A DNA stretch of 56,476 nucleotides from Candidatus Gemmiger stercorigallinarum (lineage in GTDB: Bacteria; Bacillota; Clostridia; Oscillospirales; Ruminococcaceae), in NCBI GenBank assembly GCA_019119495.1, contig DWWX01000043.1, positions 1-56,476 of the forward strand, in the 5' to 3' direction. The notes under the pieces were generated by a model. It was given only the letters and a program-made list of their open reading frames with translations. It had not been told where the DNA came from and did no database searches. The position numbers and the translations under genes are program-made. Of the stretch, positions 23,593 through 27,358 are shown piece after piece. Positions within the stretch are counted from its first letter, which is position 1, and every line of letters starts with the position of its first letter.

Positions 23593-24015
23593 TCACAGCA
23601 TGGCGGCGTCGGGGGCGCGGCGCAGGTCCTCCAGCGTAACGCTGTCCGCATACTGGTTGATGACCTGGTTCATCCCGGCCCAAAACCCCAGCGTGCGGCA
23701 GAGGCTGCGGCGGGGGCATTGCTCGGCGGTGGAGGCCAGACAGGGGATGGAGGTCAGCTCGCCCTCGATGGCGCGCAGGATCTCGCCCGCGGTGTAGTCG
23801 GCGGCGGGGCGGGCCAGCCGGTAGCCGCCCTGGCTGCCCCGCCCGCTGACCACCAGCCCCGCGCGGGCCAGCGGCGTGATGATCTGCTCCAGGTATTTCA
23901 GGCTGATGCCCTGCCGCTCGCTGACGGTTTTCAGCGGCACGAACTCGTCCGGCTTGTGGCCGGCCAGCTCCAGCATCAGGCGCAGGGCATAACGGTCCTT
24001 GGTGGAAAACTTCAT
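23593..24015 (-). CDS. Rrf2 family transcriptional regulator with IscR-like cysteines
   Basis: A 140-residue winged-helix regulator. The N-terminal STKDRYALRLMLELA and GRGSQGGYRLARP are typical of Rrf2 proteins such as IscR, NsrR and CymR. C92, C100 and C106 occupy the place of the IscR cluster cysteines, so an Fe-S cluster or redox sensing is plausible. It is divergent from the methionine importer unit, and CymR-type Rrf2 proteins control sulfur amino acid genes, so a role in sulfur or Fe-S regulation is a reasonable guess. No isc/suf genes adjoin it here. Confidence 0.9.
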   Translation of the reverse strand: MKFSTKDRYALRLMLELAGHKPDEFVPLKTVSERQGISLKYLEQIITPLARAGLVVSGRGSQGGYRLARPAADYTAGEILRAIEGELTSIPCLASTAEQCPRRSLCRTLGFWAGMNQVINQYADSVTLEDLRRAPDAAML

Positions 24016-24276: not shown

Positions 24277-24305
24277 TTGACAGCGCCGCCCGCTGCCGTT
24301 ATACT
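24277..24305 (+). promoter_or_regulatory. metQNI promoter
   Basis: TTGACA (24277-24282), 17-base spacer, TATACT (24300-24305). The transcript begins about 50 bases before the leader ORF. Confidence 0.9.
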
Positions 24306-24351
24306 TGCAGGTAACAAGACCGCCCGCCGGACGGAAACCACCAGGGAAGGA

Positions 24352-24482
24352 GCTGCCGTCAATGTACCGTCGTTATGGCATGATGATGTGCATGTACAGT
24401 TTGCTGCGGCAGCCTGTGCTTGCTTCCCTGTGCGCGCATTCCGGCGTGCGATAAAGGGACATTCCAGGGCAGGGCGCCGCAG
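24352..24482 (+). promoter_or_regulatory. leader region with mutually exclusive RNA pairings (attenuator)
   Basis: Segment 1 GCTGCCG (24352-24358) can pair with CGGCAGC in segment 2 (24407-24413). Segment 2 CTGCGGCAGCCTG (24404-24416) can instead pair with CAGGGCGCCGCAG (24470-24482), which is the 5-prime arm and loop of the terminator. Pairing 2:3 would prevent termination. A ribosome stalled at the Met codons (24380-24394) leaves segment 2 free. Confidence 0.75.
24362..24454 (+). CDS. methionine-rich leader peptide (30 residues)
   Basis: ATG at 24362 with AAGGAG nine bases upstream, 30 codons, TAA at 24452-24454. Codons 7-11 read Met-Met-Met-Cys-Met (peptide start MYRRYGMMMCMY). It lies between a consensus promoter and an intrinsic terminator directly upstream of the methionine importer genes. 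This is the arrangement of amino-acid leader-peptide attenuators such as trpL or hisL. I infer that scarcity of charged elongator Met-tRNA stalls the ribosome and allows read-through into metQNI. Confidence 0.75.
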   Translation: MYRRYGMMMCMYSLLRQPVLASLCAHSGVR

Positions 24483-24503
24483 GCGTCCTGCCCTTTTTGT
24501 TTT
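24467..24503 (+). terminator. attenuator terminator upstream of metQ
   Basis: GGGCAGGGCGCC (24467-24478), loop GCA, GGCGTCCTGCCC (24482-24493), then TTTTTGTTTT. A 12-bp stem with one G-U pair, placed between promoter and first transporter gene. Confidence 0.92.
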
Positions 24504-24552
24504 GTCCCCTGTCCGTCTTGTCCGCACTGCCACGTCATAAGGAGGGACCCCC

Positions 24553-24615
24553 ATGCAAACCGGCCCGGCCTGCAAACAGCCCGGCGTGCGAATGTGCCCG
24601 CCCGGCTGCCCGTGA
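24553..24615 (+). CDS. possible small protein, 20 residues, Cys- and Pro-rich
   Basis: AAGGAGGG (24539-24546) is seven bases before an ATG that opens a 20-codon frame starting MQTGPACKQPGV and ending with MCPPGCP before TGA. The ribosome site is as good as those of the real genes around it. It lies after the attenuator terminator and before metQ, so it would be made only on read-through. It may be a second regulatory ORF, or it may help ribosomes load; no homologue is known to me. Confidence 0.4.
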   Translation: MQTGPACKQPGVRMCPPGCP

Positions 24616-24680
24616 CCCCCGCCCGCGCCCGCTGCGGGCCCCGTCCCCAAAAAAACACCCCAAAACAGGAGGAACCAACC

Positions 24681-25604
24681 ATGAAAAAACTGACTGCTTC
24701 CCTGCTGGCCGCCGCGCTGGCTATCAGCCTGGCCGCCTGCAGCGCCGGCACCTCTTCCACCGCTTCCGGCGAGAGCACCGGCACTTCTTCCGCCGCCGGC
24801 GCCGCCTCCGGCGAGAGCGCCGCCTTTACCGGCGACGGCTTTGACGACAGCATCGACTACGCCGCGCTTGCCGGCACCACCATCCGGGTGGGTGCTTCCC
24901 CCACGCCCCACGCCGAGATCCTGGCCGTGGCCGCCGACATCCTGGCCCAGGCGGACATCACACTGGACATTGTCGAATTTACCGACTACGTCCAGCCCAA
25001 CACCGCCACCGAGAGCGGCGACCTGGACGCCAACTACTTCCAGCACCAGGACTACCTGAACACCTTCAACGAGGAGAACGGCACCCATCTGGTCTCGGTG
25101 GCCGAGATCCACTACGAGCCGCTGGGCCTTTACCCCGGCAAGACCCAGAGCATTGACGAGCTGCCCGACGGCGCCCAGATCTCGGTGCCCAACGATACCT
25201 CCAACGAGGCCCGCGCCCTGCAGCTGCTGGCCGCCCAGGGCCTGATCGAGCTGGACCCCGACGCCGGCCTGACCGCCACCAAAAACGACATTACCGCCAA
25301 CCCCAAGAACATCGAGATCGTTGAGATGGAGGCCGCCCAGCTGCCCCGCACGCTGAGCGACGTGGACATGGCCGTCATCAACGGCAACTACGCCACCCAG
25401 GCGGGCTTCTCCTCGGCCAGTGACGCCCTGGCGGCCGAGAGCGCCGACTCGGAAGCCGCCCAGATCTACCCCAACGTGCTGGTGGTCAAGGAAGGCCGCG
25501 AGAGCGACCCCGCCATCCTGGCCCTGGCCGCTGCGCTGCAGAGCGGCGCGGTGCGCGATTTTATCAACGAGACCTACGGCGGCGCCGTGGTGCCGCTGTT
25601 CTGA
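24681..25604 (+). CDS. metQ: methionine ABC transporter substrate-binding lipoprotein
   Basis: A 307-residue NlpA/MetQ-family lipoprotein. The signal peptide ends at the lipobox LAAC (Cys about residue 19), followed by a Ser/Gly/Thr-rich linker. TIRVGASPTPHAEIL, DANYFQHQDYLNTFN and VPNDTSNEARALQLL are family hallmarks, and the ending DFINETYGGAVVP is typical. It captures methionine outside the membrane for MetNI. AGGAGG is eight bases before the ATG. First structural gene of metQ-metN-metI. Confidence 0.96.
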   Translation: MKKLTASLLAAALAISLAACSAGTSSTASGESTGTSSAAGAASGESAAFTGDGFDDSIDYAALAGTTIRVGASPTPHAEILAVAADILAQADITLDIVEFTDYVQPNTATESGDLDANYFQHQDYLNTFNEENGTHLVSVAEIHYEPLGLYPGKTQSIDELPDGAQISVPNDTSNEARALQLLAAQGLIELDPDAGLTATKNDITANPKNIEIVEMEAAQLPRTLSDVDMAVINGNYATQAGFSSASDALAAESADSEAAQIYPNVLVVKEGRESDPAILALAAALQSGAVRDFINETYGGAVVPLF

Positions 25605-25640: not shown

Positions 25641-26651
25641 ATGATCGAACTGAAACATCTGACCAAGCATTTTGAGACTCAGGCCGGCACTGTGGCGGCG
25701 CTGGAAGACATCAGCCTGTCCATCGCCGACGGCGACATCTTTGGCGTCATCGGCATGTCGGGCGCCGGCAAGTCCACGCTGGTGCGCTGCATCAACCTGC
25801 TGGAGCGGCCCGATTCGGGCAGTGTGGTCGTCAACGGGCAGGACATGCAGCAGCTCTCCCCCGCCGCCCTGCGCGCGGCGCGGCGGGACATCGCCATGAT
25901 CTTTCAGCAGTTCAACCTGCTGATGCAGCGCACCTGCCTGAAAAACATCTGCTTCCCGCTGGAGCTGGCCGGCCGCCCCAAGGCGGAGGCCGAGGCCCGC
26001 GCCAGGCAGCTGCTGGAGCTGGTGGGCCTGCCGGACAAAGCCGACGCCTACCCGGCGCAGCTGTCCGGCGGGCAGAAACAGCGCATCGCCATTGCCCGCG
26101 CGCTGGCCACCGACCCGAAGGTGCTGCTGTGCGACGAGGCCACCAGCGCGCTGGACCCCAACACCACCCACTCGATCCTGCAGCTGATCCAGCAGATCAA
26201 CCGCGAGCTGGGCATCACCGTGGTGGTCATCACCCACCAGATGAGCGTGGTGGAGGACATCTGCCGCCATGTGGCCATTTTGGACGGCGGCCGGGTGGTG
26301 GAGCAGGGCGACGTGGCCGAGATCTTCTCCAACCCCAAAACCGACGCCGCCCGCCGGCTGGTGTTCCCCGCCGGCGCGCCCCGCAGCGAGGGCGACCTGC
26401 TGCCGGGGCGGCGGATGGTGCGGGTGGCTTTCAACGGCACCCATACCACCGACAAACCGCTGGTGGCCAGCCTGGCCATCGAGTGCAACGCCCTGGTCTC
26501 CATTGTGGCGGCGGACACCCGCGTGGTCAACGGCCAGACGCTGGGCAGCATGCTGCTGGCCCTGCCGGAGGACGAGGCCGCGGCGCAGCGCGCCATCGAG
26601 TATATCCGGGCCTATCCCGGCCTGAGCTTTGAGGAGGTGGACCCGGCATGA
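25641..26651 (+). CDS. metN: methionine ABC transporter ATP-binding protein
   Basis: A 336-residue ATPase. Walker A is GMSGAGKST, the Q loop lies in IFQQFNLL, signature LSGGQKQR, Walker B VLLCDEATSALD and the switch His in VVITHQM. After about residue 245 comes the NIL domain (VRVAFNGTHTTDKPLV onward) that binds cytoplasmic methionine and inhibits transport in known MetN. Overlaps metI by four bases (ATGA). Confidence 0.97.
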   Translation: MIELKHLTKHFETQAGTVAALEDISLSIADGDIFGVIGMSGAGKSTLVRCINLLERPDSGSVVVNGQDMQQLSPAALRAARRDIAMIFQQFNLLMQRTCLKNICFPLELAGRPKAEAEARARQLLELVGLPDKADAYPAQLSGGQKQRIAIARALATDPKVLLCDEATSALDPNTTHSILQLIQQINRELGITVVVITHQMSVVEDICRHVAILDGGRVVEQGDVAEIFSNPKTDAARRLVFPAGAPRSEGDLLPGRRMVRVAFNGTHTTDKPLVASLAIECNALVSIVAADTRVVNGQTLGSMLLALPEDEAAAQRAIEYIRAYPGLSFEEVDPA

Positions 26652-27358
26652 GCGAACTGTTCGCAGCCATTGCTGCATCCGACGAATGGCAGACGATGCT
26701 GGACATCCTGCCCGACCTGCCCTTTGCCACCTGGGAGAGCTTTTACGCCACCGTGCTGACCACAGTGCTGGCGCTGGTCATCGGCCTGCCGCTGGGCGTG
26801 CTGCTGGTGGTGGGCGACCGCGGCGGCCTGCTGCCGCTGCCCCGCTGGCTGATGACGGCGCTGAACGTGGTCATCAACCTGCTGCGCAGCGTGCCGTTTT
26901 TGATCCTGATGATCATGGTGCAGCCGCTGTCGCGCGTGATCATGGGCACCACCATCGGCACGGTGGCGTCCATCGTCCCGCTGGTGGCCGCCAGCTTCCC
27001 CTTTGTGGCGCGCCTGGTGGAGACCAGCCTGCGCGAGGTGGACGGCGGCGTCATCGAGGCCGCCCAGAGCATGGGCGCCACGCCCTTCCAGATCATCGCC
27101 AAGGTCATGATCCCCGAAAGCCTGCCCAGCCTGATCGCCAACGTGACCATCGCGCTGACCACGATCCTGAGCTACGCGGCCATGGCGGGCATCATCGGCG
27201 GCGGCGGCCTGGGCCAGATCGCCATCAACTACGGCTACTACCGCTACCAGTACCTGACCATGGTGGTGGCCACCGTGCTGCTGGTGGTTCTGGTGCAGCT
27301 GTTCCAGAGCGCGGGCACCTGGCTGGCCGCCCGGTGCGACAAGCGCCTGCGCAAGTAA
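26648..27358 (+). CDS. metI: methionine ABC transporter permease
   Basis: A 236-residue membrane protein with about five helices. The ATPase-coupling EAA motif appears as EAAQSMGATPFQIIAKVMIPESLPSL-type sequence near residue 138 onward. LLRSVPFLILMI and GIIGGGGLGQIAINYGY are typical of MetI. The ATG overlaps the metN stop. A strong terminator follows, closing the unit. Confidence 0.97.
   Translation: MSELFAAIAASDEWQTMLDILPDLPFATWESFYATVLTTVLALVIGLPLGVLLVVGDRGGLLPLPRWLMTALNVVINLLRSVPFLILMIMVQPLSRVIMGTTIGTVASIVPLVAASFPFVARLVETSLREVDGGVIEAAQSMGATPFQIIAKVMIPESLPSLIANVTIALTTILSYAAMAGIIGGGGLGQIAINYGYYRYQYLTMVVATVLLVVLVQLFQSAGTWLAARCDKRLRK

Follow-up and report, generated by a model that had tools for sequence, protein, structure and literature searches.

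Which signal controls the methionine uptake operon metQNI of Candidatus Gemmiger stercorigallinarum, and through what kind of leader? Methionine genes of Gram-positive bacteria are a standard case of riboswitch and T-box control. For Firmicutes, the SAM-I (S-box) riboswitch is named as the usual control of these genes and T-boxes as a further one (PMC4239095). The analysed window, a stretch of 56,476 nucleotides, is contig C34 of a 2.06 Mb genome in 44 contigs. An earlier note had read the region before metQ as a leader-peptide attenuator for methionine: a consensus promoter, a 30-codon ORF with a good ribosome site, Met-Met-Met-Cys-Met at codons 7-11 and a strong intrinsic terminator, with metQNI downstream. 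All these elements were located again, and the genes were identified by domain search:

24277-24305, plus strand: promoter, sigma-70 type, TTGACA-17-TATACT, matching 11 of 12 consensus bases
24362-24454, plus strand: leader peptide ORF 1, 30 codons, reading MYRRYGMMMCMYSLLRQPVLASLCAHSGVR, with an AAGGAG ribosome site at 24347-24352
24380-24394, plus strand: regulatory codons Met-Met-Met-Cys-Met, codons 7-11 of ORF 1
24466-24498, plus strand: intrinsic terminator, stem 24466-24494 plus the start of the T run
24681-25604, plus strand: metQ, NlpA-type methionine-binding lipoprotein (PF03180)
25641-26651, plus strand: metN, ABC ATPase with NIL domain (PF00005 and PF09383)
26648-27358, plus strand: metI, permease (PF00528)

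The terminator stem has 13 pairs and is followed by TTTTGTTTTG. In 6 kb of sequence, six promoter-like sites were present vs. 0.7 in shuffles, and 11 terminator-like sites vs. 4.0. The sequence ATGATGATGTGYATG with at most one mismatch has a chance expectation of 0.01 in the window. A gene of an Rrf2-family regulator (PF02082) occupies 23593-24015 on the minus strand, divergent from the metQNI promoter.

An attenuator was expected to have a short ORF with a ribosome site after the promoter, a conserved series of codons, also kept in relatives, for the amino acid that its target genes serve, a conserved antiterminator and a terminator ahead of the first gene. The first and the last feature are present before metQ, with translation of the ORF inferred.

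The leader could instead conceal an overlooked T-box or SAM riboswitch. Both classes are present in Gemmiger: 32 of 35 genomes have a SAM riboswitch, one each, and T-box matches were obtained in 35 of 35, above the Rfam cut-off in at least 30. SAM-I senses SAM, and the only copy in the source genome precedes metK, not metQNI. A Met T-box, as described for the Lactococcus met operon (PMC7058034), senses the charging of tRNA-Met and controls methionine uptake via a terminator. It binds the tRNA directly, unlike the Gemmiger leader, which has no Rfam T-box match. The whole window yielded nothing against Rfam at the gathering score, neither RF00230 (T-box) nor RF00162 (SAM-I). Five further loci were scanned down to E ≤ 1, of which four carry a Met leader (L003, L011, L023 and L040) and one, a metG locus, has none (L046). 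Neither class was matched there; this relaxed scan gave five weak, unrelated matches only. A hidden riboswitch of these classes is hardly credible.

Conservation within the genus was high. Leader DNA matched in 33 of 35 Gemmiger genomes, and in 19 of 19 of high quality (at least 90% complete, at most 5% contaminated). At the same locus, 31 leaders are located directly before metQ. In G009, leader and metQ are at the ends of different contigs; in G018, G029 and G030, metQ was not detected. The leader is present in 32 of 32 Gemmiger genomes with a detected metQ, a count that leaves aside possible extra metQ paralogs without a leader. A similar promoter is upstream of all 38 leaders located by script; the 39th (L037) was not located. 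All 31 aligned metQ leaders have three or more Met codons in the run and a terminator. The run is MMM(C/R)M in 30 of them and MMCM in L031. A loss of the Met codons with the terminator retained would have refuted the attenuator and was not observed in these 31 leaders. The codon run fulfils the second expectation for the metQ and metG targets.

The metG target was not recognised in the earlier note. A second copy of the leader in the same genome (72% identity, E 8.6e-10) is directly before metG and consists of a promoter-like TTGACA/TATACT, the ORF MDFERRDGMVRMCSSLRQPAPAFPCL and a terminator. The gene behind it encodes methionyl-tRNA synthetase (NF008900, 760.7 bits vs. a cut-off of 598), as also found with Pfam. 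The Met leader precedes metG in seven genomes, the source genome (G000) and G006, G016, G018, G023, G032 and G033. The metG set comprised 30 loci, minus L058, in which the alignment began inside the gene, plus L035. Inspection by eye of these 30 usable upstream regions found seven Met leaders, seven ORFs with QPGFRM and 16 regions with neither recognised. The metG locus, independent of metQ, points to charged tRNA-Met as the signal. The peptides of the metG leaders L061 (G006) and L063 (G032) look degenerate, and L061 has lost most of the antiterminator.

In 30 of the 31 metQ leader blocks that are in frame, the codon after MMM is Cys. This would allow a sensor for sulphur amino acids that responds to cysteine alone or to both cysteine and methionine, and some leaders outside Gemmiger precede cysH or cysD. 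However, the metG leaders of G032 and G018 retain Met codons but lack Cys in the run, L030 has Arg in place of Cys, and a MetRS gene as target fits tRNA-Met. Cysteine sensing is a possible explanation, which we consider rather unlikely.

The alternative RNA pairings involve three segments in addition to the 3' arm of the terminator:

24344-24358, plus strand: segment 1, leader ribosome-binding site plus GCTGCCG, partner of segment 2 (24407-24413 and 24423-24428)
24404-24428, plus strand: segment 2, of which 24404-24416 pairs with segment 3, and 24407-24413 and 24423-24428 with segment 1
24470-24482, plus strand: segment 3, the antiterminator partner, within the terminator 5' half and loop

The pairings proposed in the earlier note were exact, with 7 of 7 pairs between 24352-24358 and 24407-24413 and 11 of 13 between 24404-24416 and 24470-24482. 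Pairing 1:2 is longer than had been noticed, also taking in the leader ribosome site (24344-24349 with 24423-24428). The covariation analysis suggested for these pairings was performed on an alignment of 37 leaders, 31 before metQ and six before metG. Omitted were L002 (same place as L040), L039 (a chance hit), L027 (leader cut at the contig end) and the G018 metG leader L037 (start not located by the script; the same leader as L068).

The terminator helix is paired in 93.3% of the cells of the alignment. Changes on both sides were present in 56 cells, vs. 21.1 in shuffles, and in seven pairs, vs. 6.1. The antiterminator is paired in 83.5% of the cells, in comparison to 33-49% when slid by one to three columns, and at least nine pairs can form in 36 of 37 leaders, in accordance with a conserved antiterminator. 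Twelve of its cells changed on both sides vs. 7.3 in shuffles (6 of 500 shuffles reached 12), and its covariation score of 0.184 (0.140 in shuffles) was reached by none of 500. Three antiterminator pairs have changes on both sides, vs. 2.6 in shuffles. One pair occurs as U-A, G-C, C-G, U-G and G-U; a U-A pair was gained in the leaders of G007/G014/G015 and G028 via changes on both strands. The duplex energy of segments 1 and 2 from the same leader is -20.3, vs. a mean of -17.2 (sd 0.47) for permuted rows, with -18.6 as the best of 2000 permutations. For segments 2 and 3 it is -20.8 vs. a mean of -19.8 (sd 0.33), and the best of 2000 permutations equals the value of the true combination. Individual rows surpassed all 100 shuffles of their own letters in 7 of 37 leaders for 1:2 and in 8 of 37 for 2:3. 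The shuffle controls leave the relatedness among the leaders in place. As far as sequence comparison can tell, the terminator covaries clearly, the antiterminator covaries modestly, and the helix 1:2 over the ribosome site is co-adapted in its energies.

Sequence and comparison demonstrate the predicted architecture: promoter, leader ORF, Met run, the pairings 1:2, 2:3 and 3:4, terminator and target genes. Very probably, the leader is a trp/his-type attenuator in which a translating ribosome controls transcription in response to charged tRNA-Met. The response to methionine is inferred, as are translation, ribosome stalling and the kinetics. In this form, and in the absence of expression data, the earlier reading is supported as a prediction. 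With scarce Met-tRNA, the ribosome would halt at the Met codons, with its front edge not quite reaching segment 2. During the stall, segment 2 would pair with segment 3 as the latter is made, no terminator would arise and metQNI (or metG) would be transcribed. With ample Met-tRNA, the ribosome would pass through segment 2, which may then fold back onto segment 1 and occlude the ribosome site of ORF 1, and the terminator would form.

Spacing and folding were examined for these states. In 34 of 37 leaders, the start of the last core Met codon and the first 2:3 pair are 14 nt apart; ten of these 34 carry an additional Met codon 9 nt downstream, at 5 nt from the first pair. When a stalled ribosome was mimicked by masking the leader up to segment 2, 2:3 formed in 32 of 37 leaders as long as segment 4 was absent. 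Under the same mask but with every segment available, the terminator prevails in the minimum-energy folds of 35 of 37 leaders. Since the terminator is favoured once segment 4 is present, the antiterminator would have to win kinetically by forming first. Full folds without a ribosome have 1:2 plus the terminator in 27 of 37 leaders. Before segment 4 is made, folds without a ribosome contain 2:3 in 24 of 37 and 1:2 in 7 of 37. As 2:3 is the commoner of the two at this stage, 1:2 is also assumed to form first.

A peptide end like LRQPVLAF was found again in many leaders, and ORF 1 may accordingly encode a nascent peptide that arrests the ribosome on a ligand such as methionine or SAM. An arrest peptide would be expected to conserve its end at the amino-acid level, and ORF 1 does not. 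After the Met run, the 17 unique blocks differ by 517 non-synonymous vs. 167 synonymous pairwise codon differences (31 in-frame metQ blocks, L027 included and L031 left out), without a synonymous bias. L031 and L063 have shifts of one nucleotide which alter the peptide and keep the pairing segment. Together, the non-synonymous excess and these frameshifted leaders indicate selection on the RNA rather than on the end of the peptide. In G007/G014/G015 and G028, the leaders differ in sequence with compensated pairing, which also counts against an arrest peptide. This role of ORF 1 is quite improbable.

The terminator may also be constitutive or under the control of a protein, for example the divergently transcribed Rrf2-family regulator at 23593-24015, with an incidental Met run. 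In contrast, Met codons, antiterminator and spacing are kept throughout the genus, and the same leader is located before metG at a separate locus. Control without the leader peptide is highly improbable, and attenuation on charged tRNA-Met remains the preferred reading.

Between terminator and metQ is a second small ORF which the earlier note had missed:

24553-24615, plus strand: ORF 2, reading MQTGPACKQPGVRMCPPGCP (..KQPGVRM..), with the Shine-Dalgarno sequence AAGGAGGG at 24539-24546, role unknown

A motif-free search for short ORFs with a preceding Shine-Dalgarno sequence in this interval succeeded at 26 of 31 metQ loci, and each of these 26 ORFs contains QPG(V/I)RM. The ORF 2 of G012 is a 27th, not caught by the Shine-Dalgarno rule; at the metQ loci of G016, G023, G028 and G031, ORF 2 is absent. 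The 26 rows comprise ten unique cores, with 16, 0 and 83 pairwise differences at codon positions 1, 2 and 3, or 69 synonymous vs. 16 non-synonymous differences. The Arg codon is CGA in 26 of 26. The synonymous bias indicates conservation of ORF 2 at the peptide level, in contrast to ORF 1. The end of the ORF 2 peptide has the amino-acid conservation of an arrest leader, with arrest itself only a possibility. By eye only, no pairing partner was seen for the invariant CGAATGTG of ORF 2. Five small peptides, three of the ORF 1 and two of the ORF 2 type, matched no Pfam or NCBIfam family.

A pattern search located ORF 2 at 36 places in 27 of 35 Gemmiger genomes: 27 beside the metQ leader, seven just upstream of metG as GFRM and two others (G017:C48, and G019:C21 reading LPGVRM). 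No match to the pattern was obtained in 194 genomes from other genera of the family. In L044, L045, L059, L062, L064, L065 and L067, the QPGFRM ORF replaces the Met leader before metG, and inspection by eye revealed no terminator at these seven loci.

The Gemmiger leader resembles trp/his-type attenuators in its short ORF, its run of cognate codons, its overlapping antiterminator and terminator and its targets of the same amino acid. It differs in its Met codons, with metQNI and metG as targets, in a pairing 1:2 that buries the leader ribosome site, in the second conserved small ORF that follows and in a stop codon beyond segment 2. In the classical trp leader, the stop codon is not beyond segment 2. 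Leader-peptide attenuators for histidine have been predicted in some Firmicutes (PMC2965389, PMC9413887). Cys leader peptides were predicted for actinobacterial cys operons and are also short ORFs with codons for a sulphur amino acid (PMC1262725). Their Cys runs are near the stop codon and no conserved terminator hairpin was found for them, unlike in Gemmiger. No conserved RNA structure was reported at actinobacterial methionine operons (PMC1262725).

No description of a methionine leader-peptide attenuator was found in the open literature, with most subscription papers outside the scope of the search. This agrees with the previous statement that none is described for metQNI. As the subscription literature was mostly outside the search, the novelty is provisional. 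A genus with both riboswitch and T-box seems to gauge its methionine supply through translation of a leader peptide, for the uptake operon and, in some of its members, also for the tRNA synthetase gene. ORF 2, conserved in its amino acids, is a defined new target for work on ribosome arrest.

Outside the genus, the distribution is scattered. The pattern ATGATGTGYATGTRC was present in 7 of 197 genomes of the family: three Gemmiger, one with a real leader (L070) and three others. L074, L075 and L076 looked like chance matches to the pattern and were rejected as leaders. L070 belongs to another genus of the family and has the leader MGRFGQNSNMMMCMCGMMMRSALFGVLRSRRV and a terminator before a metF-like gene (best match TIGR00676, just under the cut-off). 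The Met-run motif is rare: its 18-base pattern was found in none of 290 other genomes of the class; the codon-permuted control, with 0 of 291, was equally empty and is unable to show enrichment. R1, a covariance model built from the Gemmiger leader, gave strong full-length matches only in the three Gemmiger of a 157-genome sample of the family. Weak matches of R1 (at most 32 bits) occurred in 34 of 154 genomes of other genera, mostly to the 3' terminator part only.

A scan of named genomes for MMMCM(C/Y) codons (ATGATGATGTGYATGTRC) gave at least 80 loci. Among the matches listed, 13 Gemmiger and 34 other loci have a short ORF plus terminator, defined as a frame of at most 60 codons and a terminator score of at least 7 in our own finder. 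The 34 non-Gemmiger leaders among the matches listed belong to Bacillota, Synergistota and Bacteroidota, and 24 of them precede metN (13), metY (5), cysH (4), cysD (1) or metX (1). Of the remainder among these matches, five precede a polar amino-acid permease, three another gene (without family, GNAT or M20 amidohydrolase) and two no gene in the covered DNA. Part of the next genes was scanned against NCBIfam or Pfam, and the rest was assigned by blastp to the scanned ones. MetN and MetX were best matches below the curated NCBIfam cut-offs; metY (TIGR01326), cysH and cysD were above. Several non-Gemmiger loci are near-identical and not independent. For 19 of 42 non-Gemmiger candidates among the matches listed, the pairing of the stretch after the Met run with the terminator 5' arm ranked in the top 10 against 200 shuffles, where about two candidates are expected. 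Near-identical loci and a few likely chance matches are among the 42. The sequences are so short that common descent and convergence cannot be distinguished. In other phyla, the leaders before metN, metY, metX, cysH and cysD suggest an overlooked mode of control, with peptides too short for annotation.

A broader proposal is tentative and possible at best. Gemmiger would run methionine uptake and MetRS with two kinds of leader peptide: the Met-codon attenuator and a QPG(V/I/F)RM peptide that follows or replaces it and acts via its own amino-acid sequence, possibly by an arrest that tunes metQ/metG translation. More widely, MMMCMC-type leaders would form a scattered class of sulphur amino-acid attenuators in at least three phyla.

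Some further loci were noticed in the scan. In Flavobacterium (L077, L082, L109 and L133), a Thr/Ile-rich short ORF, MNTITEITLTAITAS in L082, seems by eye to be located between the Met/Cys leader and cysH. Brachybacterium L125, L145 and L146 have short frames with MMMCMCMMHRQPSL, for which no terminator was found, possibly another Met leader. Five uncultured Clostridia-like loci (L088, L090, L099, L117 and L151) have an MMMCMC leader and a terminator before an identical polar amino-acid ABC permease, which is possibly a methionine or cystine transporter.
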